This document shows positions 14,395-20,010 of a stretch of 64,000 bases of DNA, piece after piece (the stretch's first letter is position 1; every line of letters begins with the position of its first letter). The stretch comes from Plantibacter elymi (nom. nud.). Lineage in GTDB: Bacteria; Actinomycetota; Actinomycetes; Actinomycetales; Microbacteriaceae. The position numbers and the translations under genes were made by a program. The stretch spans positions 310,001-374,000 of the forward strand of contig NZ_FXWJ01000001.1 of NCBI RefSeq assembly GCF_900177795.1, given 5' to 3'. The notes under the pieces were generated by a model, which saw only the letters and a program-made list of their open reading frames with translations, was not told the DNA's origin and ran no database searches.

Positions 14395-15156
14395 GTGGCT
14401 GAGGGGATGCGCGGCGCCCAGGTCGTCTCGCGCGTGAGCCGGATCCTCAAGATCGTGTCGGAGCATCCCGGTGGCGCGTCGTCTTCGGCGGTTGCTGCGG
14501 CCGCCGGGCTCACCCGGCCGACGGCGCACCGCCTGCTCGCCTCGCTCGCCGCCGAGGGCTTCCTCGACCACGACACCCGGGCGGCCCGATGGCACCTCGG
14601 TCCAGAGTTGTTCCTCCTCGGATCGCTCGCGGCGGAGCGGTACGACGTCGCCGAGCTCGCGCAGGAGAGCGTGCGGATCCTCGCGCACGAGAGCGGCGAG
14701 AGCGCGTTCCTGTCGGTGCGCCGTGGCTTCGAGACCGTCTGTCTCCTGCGTGAGGAGGGGAGTTTTCCGGTGCGGTCGTTCGTCCTGACCGAGGGTGTCC
14801 GCTTCCCGCTGGGGGTCGCGTCGGCGGGGCTGGCGATCCTCGCGTTCTCGAGCGACGAGGAGATCGACGACTACCTGGGCCGCGCCGACCTCGCCGAGCG
14901 GTGGGGCGAGGCCCACGCCGCCGACCGTGTGCGCGAGCGGATCCGCGAGACGCGCGAGCGCGGGTATGCGGTGAACCCGGCGCTCATCCTCGAGGGCAGC
15001 TGGGGGATGGGTGCAGCGGTCTTCGATGCGGCGGGGAAGCCCGCCTGGGCGCTCAGTCTCACCGGGATCGAATCCCGGTTCCGGCCTGAGCGCCAGGCGT
15101 TCCTCGGTGGCCTGCTGCTGGAGCAGGCGCACGAGCTGTCGAAGCGGCTCCGCTGA
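14395..15156 (+). CDS. IclR family transcriptional regulator
   Basis: This 253-residue protein has an N-terminal winged helix (VSRVSRILKIVSEHPGG, then AAAAGLTRPTAHRLLASLAA) and a C-terminal GAF-like effector domain (FLSVRRGFETVCLLREEGS, GVRFPLGVASAGLAIL, RGYAVNPALILEGSWGM). It is divergent from the thiolase/CoA-transferase operon and likely controls it in response to a pathway acid. The first candidate start is the GTG at 14395; an ATG at 14407 gives MRGAQVV and is equally possible. A 48-bp repeat begins 16 bases after the stop. Confidence 0.88.
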   Translation: MAEGMRGAQVVSRVSRILKIVSEHPGGASSSAVAAAAGLTRPTAHRLLASLAAEGFLDHDTRAARWHLGPELFLLGSLAAERYDVAELAQESVRILAHESGESAFLSVRRGFETVCLLREEGSFPVRSFVLTEGVRFPLGVASAGLAILAFSSDEEIDDYLGRADLAERWGEAHAADRVRERIRETRERGYAVNPALILEGSWGMGAAVFDAAGKPAWALSLTGIESRFRPERQAFLGGLLLEQAHELSKRLR

Positions 15157-15171: not shown

Positions 15172-15219
15172 CCTGAGCTGCGCTGCACTTCGACAAGCTC
15201 AGTGACCGGGTGGCCGCTC
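15172..15219 (+). repeat. Left 48-bp direct repeat flanking the bacteriocin cassette
   Basis: The segment beginning cctgagctgcgctgcacttc is identical over 48 bases to 18948-18995 and similar for about 13 more bases. It contains a family A core (cttcgacaagctcagtgacc). It lies 16 bases after the iclR stop. Confidence 0.9.
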
Positions 15220-15473
15220 CGTGACCGGCGGTGCGGTTCCTGAGCCTGTCGAAGGGCAGTGACCGACGGTGCGGTCCCTGAGCCTGTCGAAGGGCGGCGG
15301 CACGACGCCGGCGAGCCGTAACCCGACGCTGCTCCAGCGGTATCGCTGACCTCCCAAGGTGGCGCGATGAGGCGTGGAGGGACTCTCGACCATCTTTCGA
15401 CCCACGCGCTGGGTCTCGCGCTATGGCGGTGAGTCAGTCATATCAGCGAACCAGGAAAGCCTGAAATATTAAC

Positions 15474-15503
15474 TGGACATGCAAAATATCTGTTCGCTAG
15501 GGT
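15474..15503 (+). promoter_or_regulatory. Probable promoter of the bacteriocin operon
   Basis: TGGACA (15474-15479) and TAGGGT (15498-15503) are separated by 18 bases, a fair match to a housekeeping promoter. Transcription would start near 15510 and leave a leader of about 130 bases before the bacteriocin ATG. Confidence 0.5.
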
Positions 15504-15641
15504 CGACCTACGCTCAACTCCTCAAGCCGAACCGACCAAAAGGAGCCATTCAGGTGTCGATAGTCGGATCGGCTGCGGACAAGATCGCGGGGCGTTACCG
15601 TCGGTGGCGCTCGACTCAAAGGGTTAGAGGGGAAACACATA

Positions 15642-15932
15642 ATGAGGATCAAAAAGGCACTCACCGTCACGCTACTGTCTGCGGGACTGTTGGCTGGAGG
15701 AGCAGGTGTCGCGCACGCGGAAACCGTTTACTACAAAGGGTCTGCGATCAGCTGGGATCACGGTCGCTCTTGGGGGGTAACGAGTTACTCGAGTGTGCAG
15801 TCGGGCGCCTACGAGCACAGCGCCACCGCAAATACGACCTTCTCAGGTTGGAAAGCCCCGGGAGTGCTTGCGAGCGCTGAACAGTGGGTCGGGACGGGCT
15901 CGGCGACGGCCTACTGGAACGCCCGAGGATAG
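15642..15932 (+). CDS. Lactococcin 972 family bacteriocin precursor
   Basis: This 96-residue secreted peptide has a clear Sec signal: basic MRIKK, a hydrophobic core to about residue 23, and AHA before the predicted cleavage at A26/E27. The mature part would be 70 residues (ETVYYKGSAISWDHG...), without cysteine and rich in Gly, Ser, Tyr and Trp. YEHSAT matches the HSAT core of lactococcin 972, and an aromatic end (AYWNARG) parallels the aromatic C-terminus of that peptide. Lactococcin 972 blocks septum formation by binding lipid II. AGAGGGG lies 9 bases before the ATG. The next two genes are the membrane protein and ATPase that typically accompany this family. Confidence 0.85.
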   Translation: MRIKKALTVTLLSAGLLAGGAGVAHAETVYYKGSAISWDHGRSWGVTSYSSVQSGAYEHSATANTTFSGWKAPGVLASAEQWVGTGSATAYWNARG

Positions 15933-16039
15933 GTTCTTCGTTCACATATTCGGCCTCTCGTGAGGTCTCCGTCGTCTGGGGCGACCTCACGAGAGTGTCC
16001 GGAGAACCGGCGGTCGGCGAAAGAGAGACGGCAACACAC

Positions 16040-18229
16040 ATGGCCCTCTGGTCGAAAGTGACGAGCGTCGTGCTCGTGATCGTCATCGGAGCACTGATGA
16101 GTGTGCTCTACGTGATCGGTCAAGGGAGCCTGCTTCGTCGAGAGATCGATGAGTATCCTCGCGGTTCCACAGAGATCTCCCTCTATGACGTTTCCGAGGC
16201 GCAAACGACTCGCGTACTGGGCATTCTCGGTGAGTTCGCCACCGCCGACGAGGCAGCCATCGTGAGAGTGGATCAAGAGTTGTCCGATGCTGACGGCTCA
16301 TTGACCGGGATGCGCGTCGGGGTCATGACCGGAGACAATGCTCCGGCATCGCTCACGTTGGATTTCCTCGGGACGACGCTGGTCGACATCGACCAGATCG
16401 CCGATCTCGCCAGGGCCGATCCCGCCGCATCGATCGGCCTCGACGCCAACGCGGCAGATGTGATCCACCCTGTTCCGGAGTTGTTGTTCGCGCCGCGGTT
16501 CTCCGTGGTGCAACTCGCGCGGCTCGTGGAAACGTCGGGTACGGTCAACGGTGCTTACCGGGTTTCGGGAGCCGACGAGGAGCAGTTGACGGAGTTGCTC
16601 AGTTCGCTCGAATCGGCGACGGGGCTCTCGTCGGACCGGATGCTCGCACCGCTCCGCGGTCATGTGACGGACAGCGGGATGAGCGCCCGCCTGCTTCAAG
16701 GATTCGTGATAGCCACGGCTCTCCTGCTGTTGCTCGTTCTCCTCTTCGAGGCAGTGCGTGCGTTCTGCGTGCTCGGCGTGCATCTCCTCCTGGGAAGGTC
16801 GCGCTTGGGTTTCGCCGTCGTGCTGTTGAGACCCGTCGTCGTCGCGATCGTTGCAACCATTGCGCTGTCGATGATCGCCGTACCGCTGATGGCGCCGGGA
16901 TACAGCGTGAACCCGACGATGCTCGTCGCTGCATGGAGTGCCGCAGTGGCCGGAATGCTCCTACCAGTCGGGTGTGTGGCGATCGCGGCCCTCGCGCTCG
17001 TCGCGGTCAAACCGGTCGACGCGATCGCCGGACGCTTCTCGCGGCGAATTCTGCTCGGCGTGCTCGCCGGTATTCACGCGATGGCGATGGCCGGATTCAC
17101 CACGACGTTCATCTTTCTCGACGGTCCGATGAAGGAAGCCGGAACGCTCGCAGGGGTCAGCGAATCATGGGCGGCGGTGGCCGATCAGGAGATCCTGTAC
17201 CAGACGAAGGCGGGTGATGATGAGGCGAGTTTCGCCGGACAGTCAGGCCAGTATCAGCGCGATTTCTACGACTGGTACACCTCGATCGCCGACGCGCGCG
17301 GCGTCGGCCTCGTCAACAGCCAGTATGTCGACCGGAGTGTGCTGGACGTGTGGTCGGGAGTGTACCAATCCGTTCCGGAGCGGCCGTTCTGGTATGTGGT
17401 GGCCTCGCCGAACGCCCTCGCGTCACAGGGCTTCGCGGTGGACGCCGGTCTCGTCGAGCGTGCCGAGGCCGGCGAACGTGTCTTCCTGATTCCGGATTCC
17501 TGGACGGGATCGGCGCAAGCCGCAGTCCGCGGGTGGCTCGGTGAGCACAGTGACGTCGCCTACGAACCGGCGATCCGCACGGCCTTCTTCGACGACCGGA
17601 TCGTCACCTTCCAGAACTACCACCCCGCCGAAGCGCTGTTCCCGTGGAGCACGAATCCGGCTGGGTGGAATGGGGTCACCGACGCGGTCATCCTCGTGAC
17701 GACCCCGGAGAACATGATCCCGTTCGAAAGCGAAAGCCTCGCCGCGGTCGGGTTGGACAACAGTTACGTCAAGCTCAGCCGGGGCGCATCGAAGAGCTAT
17801 GCGAATCAGTCATACCTCTCGAGATTCGACCTGGACGACAACGGGGTCGAATTTCTCCCGGTCGGCGATTTCGTCGCGGGCCTCACGAAGTCCATCCAGT
17901 CGGTGGTGCAACTCTTCGGCGTGATGATTCTCTTCCTTGGCCTGTTCTGCTTGTTGCTGCTCACTGCGCTGATGAGGCTGTATTCGACCACGTATCGGGA
18001 ATCGATGGCCGTCAAGAGGATGCTCGGGTATTCATCCAGCAGCATCTTCGCGCCCGCCTTCGTCCTCGTCGGCGTGGTCTGTGCCTCGGCAGTGACAGCC
18101 GCGGCGCTGTCCTCTTCGCGGAGCGCGATCCTGGGGATCGCCGTCATGTCCGCGGCACAACTCATCCTGTTCGTGTTCCTTGCGCGAACCCTCTCGCGGC
18201 TGCAACTGACCATCATGCTCAAGGACTAG
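16040..18229 (+). CDS. Bacteriocin-associated integral membrane protein (lactococcin 972 type; putative permease/immunity)
   Basis: This 729-residue protein has about eight membrane segments (near residues 8-27, 218-240, 257-283, 294-322, 337-360, 621-647, 668-690, 697-715) and two large outside domains (28-217 and 361-620). One signal anchor, an ectodomain, a helix bundle, a second ectodomain and a last three-helix bundle resemble FtsX/MacB-type ABC permeases. Proteins of this kind accompany lactococcin 972 peptides and are annotated as putative immunity proteins. It follows the bacteriocin by 107 bases and precedes the ATPase by 12. The start MALWSKV at 16040 follows GAGAG; the frame stays open upstream into the bacteriocin gene. 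Immunity versus export is undecided. Confidence 0.8.
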   Translation: MALWSKVTSVVLVIVIGALMSVLYVIGQGSLLRREIDEYPRGSTEISLYDVSEAQTTRVLGILGEFATADEAAIVRVDQELSDADGSLTGMRVGVMTGDNAPASLTLDFLGTTLVDIDQIADLARADPAASIGLDANAADVIHPVPELLFAPRFSVVQLARLVETSGTVNGAYRVSGADEEQLTELLSSLESATGLSSDRMLAPLRGHVTDSGMSARLLQGFVIATALLLLLVLLFEAVRAFCVLGVHLLLGRSRLGFAVVLLRPVVVAIVATIALSMIAVPLMAPGYSVNPTMLVAAWSAAVAGMLLPVGCVAIAALALVAVKPVDAIAGRFSRRILLGVLAGIHAMAMAGFTTTFIFLDGPMKEAGTLAGVSESWAAVADQEILYQTKAGDDEASFAGQSGQYQRDFYDWYTSIADARGVGLVNSQYVDRSVLDVWSGVYQSVPERPFWYVVASPNALASQGFAVDAGLVERAEAGERVFLIPDSWTGSAQAAVRGWLGEHSDVAYEPAIRTAFFDDRIVTFQNYHPAEALFPWSTNPAGWNGVTDAVILVTTPENMIPFESESLAAVGLDNSYVKLSRGASKSYANQSYLSRFDLDDNGVEFLPVGDFVAGLTKSIQSVVQLFGVMILFLGLFCLLLLTALMRLYSTTYRESMAVKRMLGYSSSSIFAPAFVLVGVVCASAVTAAALSSSRSAILGIAVMSAAQLILFVFLARTLSRLQLTIMLKD

Positions 18230-18241
18230 GACGGACCCACA

Positions 18242-18952
18242 GTGACACCACTGCTCATGATCGACCAGCTGACCAAGCAGTACGGTTCACGCCGCGTCCT
18301 CGACGGCGTGGACTTGGAGGTCCACCGTGGCGAATCGGTCGCCATCGTGGGGCCGTCAGGTTCCGGCAAGTCGACGTTGTTGAACATCGCAGGGCTCCTC
18401 GACGAGTGCAGCGGCGGCGAAGTGCGGTTCCGCGGCGCACCGCTTCCACGGATCAACAGCCGGGCGGCGTCGCATCTGCGCCGCGACCACATCAACTACC
18501 TCTTCCAGTCGTTCGCGCTGATCGGTGCTTCGACGGCCTTCGAGAACGTCCTGATCGGTCTTCATGCTGTGAGACTCGGCCGACGAGCGAAGGAGCAGCA
18601 GATCATGGAAATACTCAACCGACTCGGTCTTCGGCAGGTCGCGCACGACCGGGTCATGACGCTGTCCGGGGGAGAGCGTCAGCGCGTCGCGCTCGCTCGT
18701 TGCCTCGTGAAGCCGGGAGAGCTCATCCTCGCGGACGAGCCGACGGGAGCCCTCGATGACGCTCTGGCGGATGTCGCAGTCGCTGAAATGCTCTCGCTAC
18801 AGCAGGACTACGGCAAGACACTGCTGGTGGTCACTCACGATCGGCGGGTCGCCGACCGATGCGACCGGGTCTTCGACCTCGGCCTGTCTGCAGAACGCGA
18901 TGGAGCCCCGTCGCTCTCGGCCTCGTCGGCCGACCCGGCGACCAGGTCCTGA
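18242..18952 (+). CDS. ABC transporter ATPase of the lactococcin 972 cassette
   Basis: This 236-residue ATPase of the MacB/LolD type has Walker A GPSGSGKST (37-45), Q-loop LFQSFALIG, signature LSGGERQR, Walker B LILADEPTGALD and switch VVTHD. It should power the membrane protein encoded just upstream. The GTG start at 18242 follows that gene's stop by 12 bases. The final codons run into the right copy of the 48-bp repeat: the TGA stop (18950-18952) lies inside it, so the SSADPATRS tail may reflect the insertion junction. Confidence 0.85.
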   Translation: MTPLLMIDQLTKQYGSRRVLDGVDLEVHRGESVAIVGPSGSGKSTLLNIAGLLDECSGGEVRFRGAPLPRINSRAASHLRRDHINYLFQSFALIGASTAFENVLIGLHAVRLGRRAKEQQIMEILNRLGLRQVAHDRVMTLSGGERQRVALARCLVKPGELILADEPTGALDDALADVAVAEMLSLQQDYGKTLLVVTHDRRVADRCDRVFDLGLSAERDGAPSLSASSADPATRS

Positions 18953-18995
18953 GCTGCGCTGCACTTCGACAAGCTCAGTGACCGGGTGGCCGCTC
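18948..18995 (+). repeat. Right 48-bp direct repeat flanking the bacteriocin cassette
   Basis: This copy is identical to 15172-15219 and in the same orientation, 3776 bp away. It overlaps the last codon and stop of the ABC ATPase gene. Further family A copies follow at 19011-19055 (ggtccctgag..., then ctgagcctgtcgaag). Confidence 0.9.
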
Positions 18996-19010
18996 AGTGA
19001 TCAGCGGTCC

Positions 19011-19055
19011 GGTCCCTGAGCTGCGTCGCACTGAGCCTGTCGAAGTGTCGAAGGG
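19011..19055. repeat. Family A repeat copies downstream of the bacteriocin cassette
   Basis: One partial and one full family A core (ctgagcctgtcgaagtgtcgaagg) lie between the cassette and the stop of the convergent aldo/keto reductase gene at 19067. Confidence 0.7.
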
Positions 19056-19066
19056 TGGTGGGAGTA

Positions 19067-19936
19067 CTACTCCGAGACGGCGGACAGCTCCTCGAACTCG
19101 TCGTCGGTGAGCTCGATCGTCGCGCCCTGCAGGTTGTCCTCGAGGTGCTCGATGCTCGACGTCCCCGGGATCGGGAGCATGACGCGCGAGCGCTTGAGCA
19201 GCCAGGCCAGCGCGAGCTGCGACGGGGTCGCGTCGTGTCGCTCGGCGAGCTGCGTGAGCGGGCCGTCCTCCTTGCTGAGGGCGCCGGTCGCCAGCGGGAA
19301 CCACGGGATGAAGGCGACGCCGTGCTCGGTCGACCAGTCGAGGAGGTCCTCCGAGGAGCGGTCGGTGAGGTTGTAGAGGTTCTGCACCGACGCGATCGGA
19401 GCGATCTTCTGGGCCGCCTCGACCTCGGCGACGCTGACCTGGCTGAGGCCGATGTGCCGGATCTTGCCCTCGTCCTGCAGCTTGCGCAGCTCGCCGATCT
19501 GGTCCTCGAACGGCACGGTCGGGTCGATCCGGTGCAACTGCAGGAGGTCGATGCGGTCGACGGCGAGACGGCGGAGACCGAGTTCGACCTGCTGGCGGAG
19601 GTAGGCGGGCACGCCGGTGGGCGTCCACTCGCCGGGACCCTGTCGCGTCTGGCCGACCTTCGTCGCGATCACGATGTCGTCGTAGGGGTGCAGCGCTTCG
19701 CGGAGGAGGGTGTCGGTGACGTCGGGGCCGTAGGCGTCGGCGCTGTCGAAGAAGTTCACGCCGAGCTCAGCGGCTCGCTTGATCAGGCGGATGGCGCCGT
19801 CGCGGTCGTCGGGCTCGCCCCAGACGCCCTCGCCGGTCAGCTGCATGGTGCCGTAACCGAGTCGGTTGACGGTGAGGTCGCCGCCGAGGGCGAAGGTGCC
19901 TGCGGCGGTTGCGGGGCGTGTGGTGGTGTCGGTCAT
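19067..19936 (-). CDS. Aldo/keto reductase
   Basis: This 289-residue NADPH-dependent reductase has the AKR barrel and tetrad: NRLGYGTMQLTG at the start, VNFFDSADAYGP (catalytic Asp and Tyr), IATKVG (Lys) and LLQLHRID (His). It should reduce an aldehyde or ketone in the cytosol. The ATG at 19936 begins MTDTTTRPATA; in-frame codons before it are in intergenic DNA. It is oriented against the bacteriocin cassette and is probably monocistronic. The substrate is unknown. Confidence 0.87.
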   Translation of the reverse strand: MTDTTTRPATAAGTFALGGDLTVNRLGYGTMQLTGEGVWGEPDDRDGAIRLIKRAAELGVNFFDSADAYGPDVTDTLLREALHPYDDIVIATKVGQTRQGPGEWTPTGVPAYLRQQVELGLRRLAVDRIDLLQLHRIDPTVPFEDQIGELRKLQDEGKIRHIGLSQVSVAEVEAAQKIAPIASVQNLYNLTDRSSEDLLDWSTEHGVAFIPWFPLATGALSKEDGPLTQLAERHDATPSQLALAWLLKRSRVMLPIPGTSSIEHLEDNLQGATIELTDDEFEELSAVSE

Positions 19937-20010
19937 GCGGGTGCTCCTTCGGAGGAATGCGGGAGTTCCAGCCAAGCACCGGCGGCTGGGAGGCGCACCC
20001 CCCTTGCGTT

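Follow-up and report, generated by a model that had tools for sequence, protein, structure and literature searches.

A divergent relative of the lactococcin 972 bacteriocin system in a repeat-flanked cassette of Plantibacter elymi

What is a compact cassette of three genes, for a small, probably secreted peptide, a large membrane protein and an ATP-binding cassette (ABC) ATPase, doing in the plant-associated actinobacterium Plantibacter elymi? The cassette lies in a 64,000-nucleotide stretch (hereafter the window; positions 310,001 to 374,000 of contig NZ_FXWJ01000001.1, called C8 below) of a 4.12-Mb genome. A first-pass annotation had read it as a lactococcin-972-type bacteriocin system in a Microbacteriaceae-like genome, and Plantibacter is indeed such a genome. 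Our open reading frame (ORF) readings agree with that annotation on the three genes, their order and their products: a 96-residue precursor, a 729-residue polytopic protein and a MacB-type ATPase. We propose that the cassette probably makes, and allows its host to survive, a secreted, envelope-acting bacteriocin of the lactococcin 972 kind, with ABC-type immunity. The lactococcin-972-type system is already known, and the cassette is a new variant of it.

The mature peptide is, on profile comparison, homologous to the lactococcin 972 family. Our tests used only the mature part, which kept signal peptides out, and set the window's peptide and its close relatives (the subfamily) against canonical peptides of the Microbacteriaceae, those reported by PF09683. 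Using hhalign, four subfamily peptides aligned with 16 canonical ones at a probability of 90.1 (E 1.6e-6); the highest probability among 100 column shuffles was 18.9. With a hidden Markov model (HMM) of canonical mature peptides, every one of 350 shuffled peptides scored below each of the seven distinct subfamily peptides. When a subfamily profile was searched in 398 genomes of the family, it returned, as it must by construction, its own five members (E 1.5e-39 or better), and the next matches, in G178 (E 9.9e-6) and G116 (E 7.5e-4), both fell on sites of PF09683-reported peptides; a weak match in G290 (E 0.007) carries internal stops. Among NCBIfam models the sole match of the precursor was TIGR01653, lactococcin_972 (E 0.0013, 19 bits). 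The partner proteins point the same way. The best NCBIfam match of the ATPase among 205 families was TIGR03608, L_ocin_972_ABC (E 1.3e-64, 217.4 bits), and it exceeds the Pfam cut-off for ABC_tran; that of the 729-residue protein was TIGR01654 (E 4.1e-7, 28.9 bits over residues 223–726), and its hydrophobic stretches fall within residues 1–32, 213–355 and 615–727.

A group of results weighs against full membership in the family. The precursor falls short of the TIGR01653 cut-off (19 versus 32.1 bits), and PF09683 gave no match to it in a Pfam search up to E 10. The six other subfamily precursors behave alike, with sub-threshold TIGR01653 matches in five, none in one and no PF09683 match in any, and the window peptide scored low in the canonical HMM test (10.7 bits, the best shuffle reaching 7.5). 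The membrane protein misses the TIGR01654 cut-off (28.9 versus 189.35 bits) and matches DUF1430 in Pfam only under its cut-off (E 0.0031), and the ATPase misses that of TIGR03608 (217.4 versus 254.85 bits). These cut-offs are strict: TIGR01653 also excludes the canonical peptide of the genome's second cassette (26.6 versus 32.1 bits), and the membrane proteins of that cassette (87.7 bits) and of a Macrococcus plasmid (85 bits) miss TIGR01654. Because no protein reaches its NCBIfam cut-off and PF09683 is silent on the peptide, we describe the window's peptide, judged by these models, as a divergent relative that falls short of certified membership. The lactococcin-972 assignment of the first-pass annotation thus held as homology of all three proteins and not as membership in the curated models. 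More generally, the subfamily shows that such models can rank real relatives under their cut-offs.

The pairing of a small peptide with the membrane protein, which the annotation had posited, recurs elsewhere. Close peptides lie directly upstream of membrane-protein relatives in G050, G139, G098, G160, G609 and G597, and all five strong peptide matches in the 398 family genomes have this position. The window's mature peptide is 60–86% identical to the six other distinct mature peptides, and this identity, together with a synonymous bias described below, confirms a pattern beyond chance. Searching one open-access text library (main texts, with figures and supplements outside its scope) for six subfamily peptide fragments returned no publication.

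The subfamily differs from its canonical relatives at positions that may matter for target binding. We scored two features read from 31 canonical peptides, neither of them an official definition: GG ahead of W-x-[YWH]-G, and a pair of histidines spaced five positions apart. The GG pair was present in 31/31 canonical peptides, a set in which it is enriched by construction through selection with PF09683, and in 0/7 subfamily peptides. The first histidine, found in 25 of the 31 canonical peptides by script and in 27 after correction by eye of L038 and L039, is replaced by serine or threonine in all seven. Both differences count against our proposal, and because these canonical features are absent, the binding site may differ. 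Two fully conserved histidines are described for Trichomonas and related sequences (PMC12612818); if the positions correspond to those reported there, the subfamily seems to lack one of them. A bacteriocin whose target or binding site is unlike that of lactococcin 972, such as another envelope precursor, the membrane or a surface protein, is therefore a serious possibility, though not the one we expect. The seven peptides share motifs of their own, and a lactococcin-972-type peptide of Bacillus velezensis reportedly damages the membranes of Streptomyces scabies (PMC9372549), a finding that tells against our proposal and makes envelope action other than through lipid II possible in the family. 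Against a different target, W-x-x-G, the second histidine and the AYW region are all retained in the subfamily, and each profile still detects the other.

Conservation of the peptide beyond the phylum bears on the same question. Plasmids of Macrococcoides caseolyticum and Macrococcus sp., both of 12,038 bases, identical in sequence and typed as mobilizable, carry a frame for a relative that is 70.8% identical over 65 residues (E 2e-25). No gene is annotated at this frame (L074 816–1181) in the incomplete PLSDB table, the expected start position has none of ATG, GTG and TTG, and a TIGR01654-type membrane protein and then a TIGR03608-type ATPase follow. Between plasmid and window the mature peptides are 67% identical and the membrane proteins 26%, so that the peptide is far more conserved than its partner, which speaks for a distinct target or binding site. 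The seven distinct mature peptides, from Actinomycetota and the one Macrococcus plasmid, share 51–86% identity among themselves, the membrane proteins that go with them 24–69%. As a tentative extension, in which we place rather little confidence, the subfamily, which scores under the curated cut-offs, may be a distinct one in which the peptide is strongly conserved across Actinomycetota and Bacillota while identity between the membrane proteins falls to about 25%, and in which the membrane protein–ATPase pair spreads or persists as a stand-alone immunity shield. Were this true, such conservation would suggest that the peptide's envelope target is invariant and that its binding site is unlike that of lactococcin 972. 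A strongly conserved, unmodified antibacterial peptide of 70 residues, if it is one, would also be a convenient study subject.

As a separate observation, the two subfamily peptides found in Actinomycetota beyond the Microbacteriaceae (L070 and L067) and the Macrococcus peptide (L074) carry a single cysteine in their terminal [ND]CR(G); the Microbacteriaceae members have NARG there.

What the two partner proteins do can be approached through genomes that have them without the peptide. Relatives of the membrane protein occur in seven of the 398 family genomes, four more in 396 genomes of the order and three more in 396 of the phylum, 14 in total with the window's own. In each of the 13 other genomes the membrane protein gene is followed by that of the ATPase, which has its Walker A, LSGGE and Walker B motifs. 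A peptide was detected in 7/14 genomes, and in the other 7/14 the pair stands without one, absence being judged from frames listed by eye near the gene and, in five of the seven, from whole-genome profile searches. The family-wide search (its draw taken as the same 398 genomes) gave no peptide match at E ≤ 0.01 in G005 and G151, and a search run without a positive control gave none at E ≤ 1 in G667, G1097 and G1002; G1097 offers only 308 bases upstream before the contig ends, and the G1002 membrane protein carries one internal stop. No peptide was seen within 1.5 kb on either side of the membrane protein in G762 and G1154, the range inspected there. In G151 the membrane protein gene (L018 6662–9088) sits directly behind a tRNA-Thr gene, tRNA genes being usual integration sites, and the gap is too small for a peptide gene. 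The frame directly upstream of the peptide-less membrane protein in G1154 (L072 408–1226) is transposase-like.

A membrane-protein tree with 16 members, from the 14 genomes plus two plasmid records, requires the peptide label to change three times, its starred branches forcing every change, and the label is clustered, with 18 and 12 of 500 shuffles as low; in this tree G1002 is represented by its longest open segment (662 residues), and several rows include residues upstream of the true start. The Clostridiaceae plasmid record showed no peptide and has a broken ATPase frame. Because the peptides are homologous, their loss is the simpler reading.

A pair that persists without its own peptide favours a function independent of it, that is, self-protection over export; given the putative Sec-type signal on the peptide, we take self-protection to be the likely role. 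A published parallel comes from pneumococci in which scbBC is retained and functional scbA is missing (PMC11796350). The same source reports, to the contrary, that pneumococci with scbBC and no scbA were still inhibited, which its authors blame on lack of expression, and by its account neither of the roles presumed for the two partner genes, immunity and transport, is backed by experiment. Export of the peptide by the membrane protein and ATPase, in place of protection, is suggested by the NCBIfam title of TIGR03608 (putative bacteriocin export ABC transporter). We consider it unlikely in view of the Sec-type signal read by eye, the peptide-less pairs with their forced label changes, and streptococcin B, which is said to require no dedicated transporter (PMC11796350). 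The peptide-less pairs and their matched full cassettes provide a natural comparison for an immunity role.

The peptide itself looks like a probably secreted, maintained product. The precursor begins with MRIKKALTVTLLSAGLLAGGAGVAHA, followed by ETVYYKG..., and by eye shows a basic start, a hydrophobic stretch and an AxA-type signal-peptide end; its hydropathy maximum is at residue 6. It contains EHSATAN and has no cysteine anywhere, so two features named by the first-pass annotation, the HSAT core and the lack of cysteine, stand, while its aromatic end does not: the aromatic residues lie near the C-terminus (AYWNARG), not at it. The membrane protein is 97% identical to its relative in Plantibacter flavus VKM Ac-2504, and likewise 97% to that in G050. 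Between the window and the P. flavus copy, the mature part of the peptide differs by six synonymous and no non-synonymous changes, the signal part by two of each, and the mature peptide is thus under selection. A decayed remnant in which production has ceased would fit a simple scan that found no sigma-70-like promoter, a result that also counts against our proposal, although shuffled sequences average only 0.5 such sites; with three intact frames and the synonymous-only changes of the mature part, we regard decay as very unlikely indeed. A 133-residue frame overlapping the peptide gene in another frame (15479–15880) was rejected as a gene, having no support of any kind.

Structure prediction did not help the proposal. 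Viewed for the beta-sandwich fold of the family, an AlphaFold model of the window's mature peptide, with which the P. flavus form is identical, has three strands and a poor predicted local distance difference test score (pLDDT 54.7), and it matched nothing in the PDB at E ≤ 0.001, weaker matches being meaningless; both results count against our proposal. Searches of solved structures by sequence gave one chance-level match for the single peptide (E 0.94), nothing up to E 10 for family profile A1, nothing up to E 1 for the membrane-protein profile and five unrelated weak matches for the canonical peptide of the second cassette (E 0.36–0.85). Against phages, the mature peptide found nothing up to E 0.1, and an alignment of the membrane protein run against viral contigs gave 29 stretches that fit a pattern, with no relative among them.

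The cassette also behaves as a small genomic island. It is bracketed by 74-bp direct repeats that are 93% identical, the left one wholly and the right one partly enclosed by the limits of the first-pass annotation (15172–18995), and the 34-nt core of the repeats occurs at these two places only in the genome, allowing up to two mismatches. Within both repeats (15188–15202 and 18964–18978) lies the 15-mer CTTCGACARGCTCAG, which has 517 copies genome-wide, against 0 for its reversed control, and which, when one mismatch is allowed, occurs at 12 sites of the window; it is apparently a very abundant, intergenic repeat. The G+C content of the cassette (15296–18952) is 62.7%, compared with 69.8% for the window, and lies below all 121 similar-sized sliding windows, some of which overlap the cassette. 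On one side is a frame at 14395–15156, on the other one at 19067–19975 on the minus strand, presumably an IclR-type regulator and an aldo/keto-reductase-type protein. Comparing cassette presence across strains, as the annotation had proposed, we found the regulator in all seven genomes of the genus and the window-type membrane protein in two. In G266, a sister species, the site is empty and the flanks are joined over one full copy of the repeat. The empty sites of G175 and G224 each hold one shortened copy, the junctions of G303 and G120 are more altered, and in G050 the cassette occupies this site with the left repeat largely gone. This pattern fits gain or loss of the cassette by recombination between the repeats, in either direction. 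No direct repeats of at least 25 bases were found around the cassettes of G139, G098 and G160 or around the second cassette, so repeat flanking is seen at the Plantibacter site only.

Patchiness and island context bear on whether the peptide is a bacteriocin at all. A signal or housekeeping secreted peptide would account for 51–86% identity across two phyla when canonical peptides within one family average 39% (325 pairs, from 26 of the 31 loci; the 'partner' frames of these loci are the longest trailing open frames, not all of them membrane proteins, and only peptide identities are used). Its presence in only 5/398 family genomes (E 1.5e-39 or better), the island with an empty site, the homology to bacteriocins and the pairing with immunity-type proteins make such a role quite improbable.

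We therefore return to a bacteriocin with its own immunity. The sequence data establish the genes, their homology, selection on the peptide, the partnership of the genes and an empty site; on this basis we propose secretion, activity, a target and an immunity role. The precursor would leave via the Sec pathway and be trimmed to an unmodified, cysteine-free peptide of about 70 residues, which would attack the envelope of related Gram-positive bacteria from outside. Its most likely effect would be to block cell-wall synthesis at the septum: Lcn972 is a lipid II binder that stops the septum from forming (PMC9964109, PMC8538875), and we infer lipid II as a candidate target here. The 729-residue protein and the ATPase would form an ABC complex that shields the producing cell by clearing the peptide from the target or the membrane, and that is dispensable for export of the peptide. 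Lactococcus lactis with lcn972-cluster constructs is reported to reach minimal inhibitory concentrations of 800 to 1600 arbitrary units (AU)/mL, against 12.5 for the plain host (PMC4055356). The cassette as a whole may move in or out as a small island between intergenic repeats. Coordinates are collected in Table 1.

Table 1. Features of the window cassette and of the second cassette. Positions are those of the window unless a locus is named.
Feature	Position	Strand	Remark
Left 74-bp direct repeat	15172–15245	+	Holds 15-mer of abundant intergenic repeat family
Probable ribosome-binding site GAGGGG, 5' of peptide gene	15627–15632	+	Read directly
Peptide precursor gene, 96 residues	15642–15932	+	ATG start; ORF reading
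Signal-peptide part of precursor	15642–15719	+	By eye
Mature peptide part, 70 residues, no cysteine	15720–15929	+	
729-residue polytopic membrane protein	16040–18229	+	Bacteriocin-associated integral membrane protein / DUF1430 relative
236-residue MacB/LolD-type ABC ATPase	18242–18952	+	GTG start
Right 74-bp direct repeat	18948–19021	+	Overlaps ATPase stop codon
Cassette 2	L003 7556–10595 (C8 about 298.6–301.6 kb)	Opposite to window cassette	Outside window
Cassette-2 peptide	L003 10284–10595		Over Pfam cut-off, 34.6 bits
Cassette-2 membrane protein	L003 8250–10220		
Cassette-2 ATPase	Within frame L003 7556–8707		Named by eye

The second, canonical cassette lies about 24 kb upstream. The membrane proteins of the two cassettes have no meaningful BLASTP similarity (best E 4.4). 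Its peptide exceeds the cut-off in G000 and G050 only among the seven genus genomes, the same two that have the window cassette, and in G266 the sequences flanking it (L003 7556 and 11359) are 49 bases apart. Canonical peptides over the PF09683 cut-off occur in 43 of the 398 family genomes, and canonical cassettes are therefore common there; a lactococcin-972-type case has been published for Frigoribacterium (PMC12823222). One canonical-type peptide frame, L034 (G150:C1:2736342-2736536), has a single in-frame TAG.

Among known systems, the window cassette is readily compared with lactococcin 972 itself (lcn972-orf2-orf3 on pBL1 of Lactococcus lactis), which is described as having the same gene order with a membrane protein and an ABC ATPase, a secreted precursor and a small, unmodified, cysteine-free mature peptide (PMC4055356, PMC8538875, PMC9964109). 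The window differs in its peptide, which lies under the TIGR01653 cut-off, goes unreported by PF09683 and lacks the GG motif and first histidine of canonical relatives, and in its host phylum. Canonical Microbacteriaceae cassettes, the second one included, share the three-gene unit and the general layout of the peptide; the cassette-2 peptide passes the Pfam cut-off and fails that of NCBIfam, whereas the window's fails both. Streptococcin B of the pneumococcus (scbABC) likewise comprises peptide, membrane protein and ATPase genes, with strains that have scbBC and no functional scbA, comparable to the peptide-less pairs, but is competence-regulated, called lactococcin-972-like by its authors and proven active (PMC11796350). 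Mediterrocin of Mediterraneibacter gnavus is another divergent relative, reported with 18% identity to the Lcn972 core, a Sec-type signal, a DUF1430 seven-transmembrane protein and an ABC protein; unlike the window's peptide, it is an annotated family member of proven activity, from Bacillota, with a 114-residue precursor and a larger cluster (PMC12345188). Brevibacterium clusters related to lactococcin 972 resemble the window in being actinobacterial, weakly homologous, carried on an island and missing from some strains, and differ in an operon with two transmembrane proteins and an island at a tRNA-Val gene (PMC5719810).

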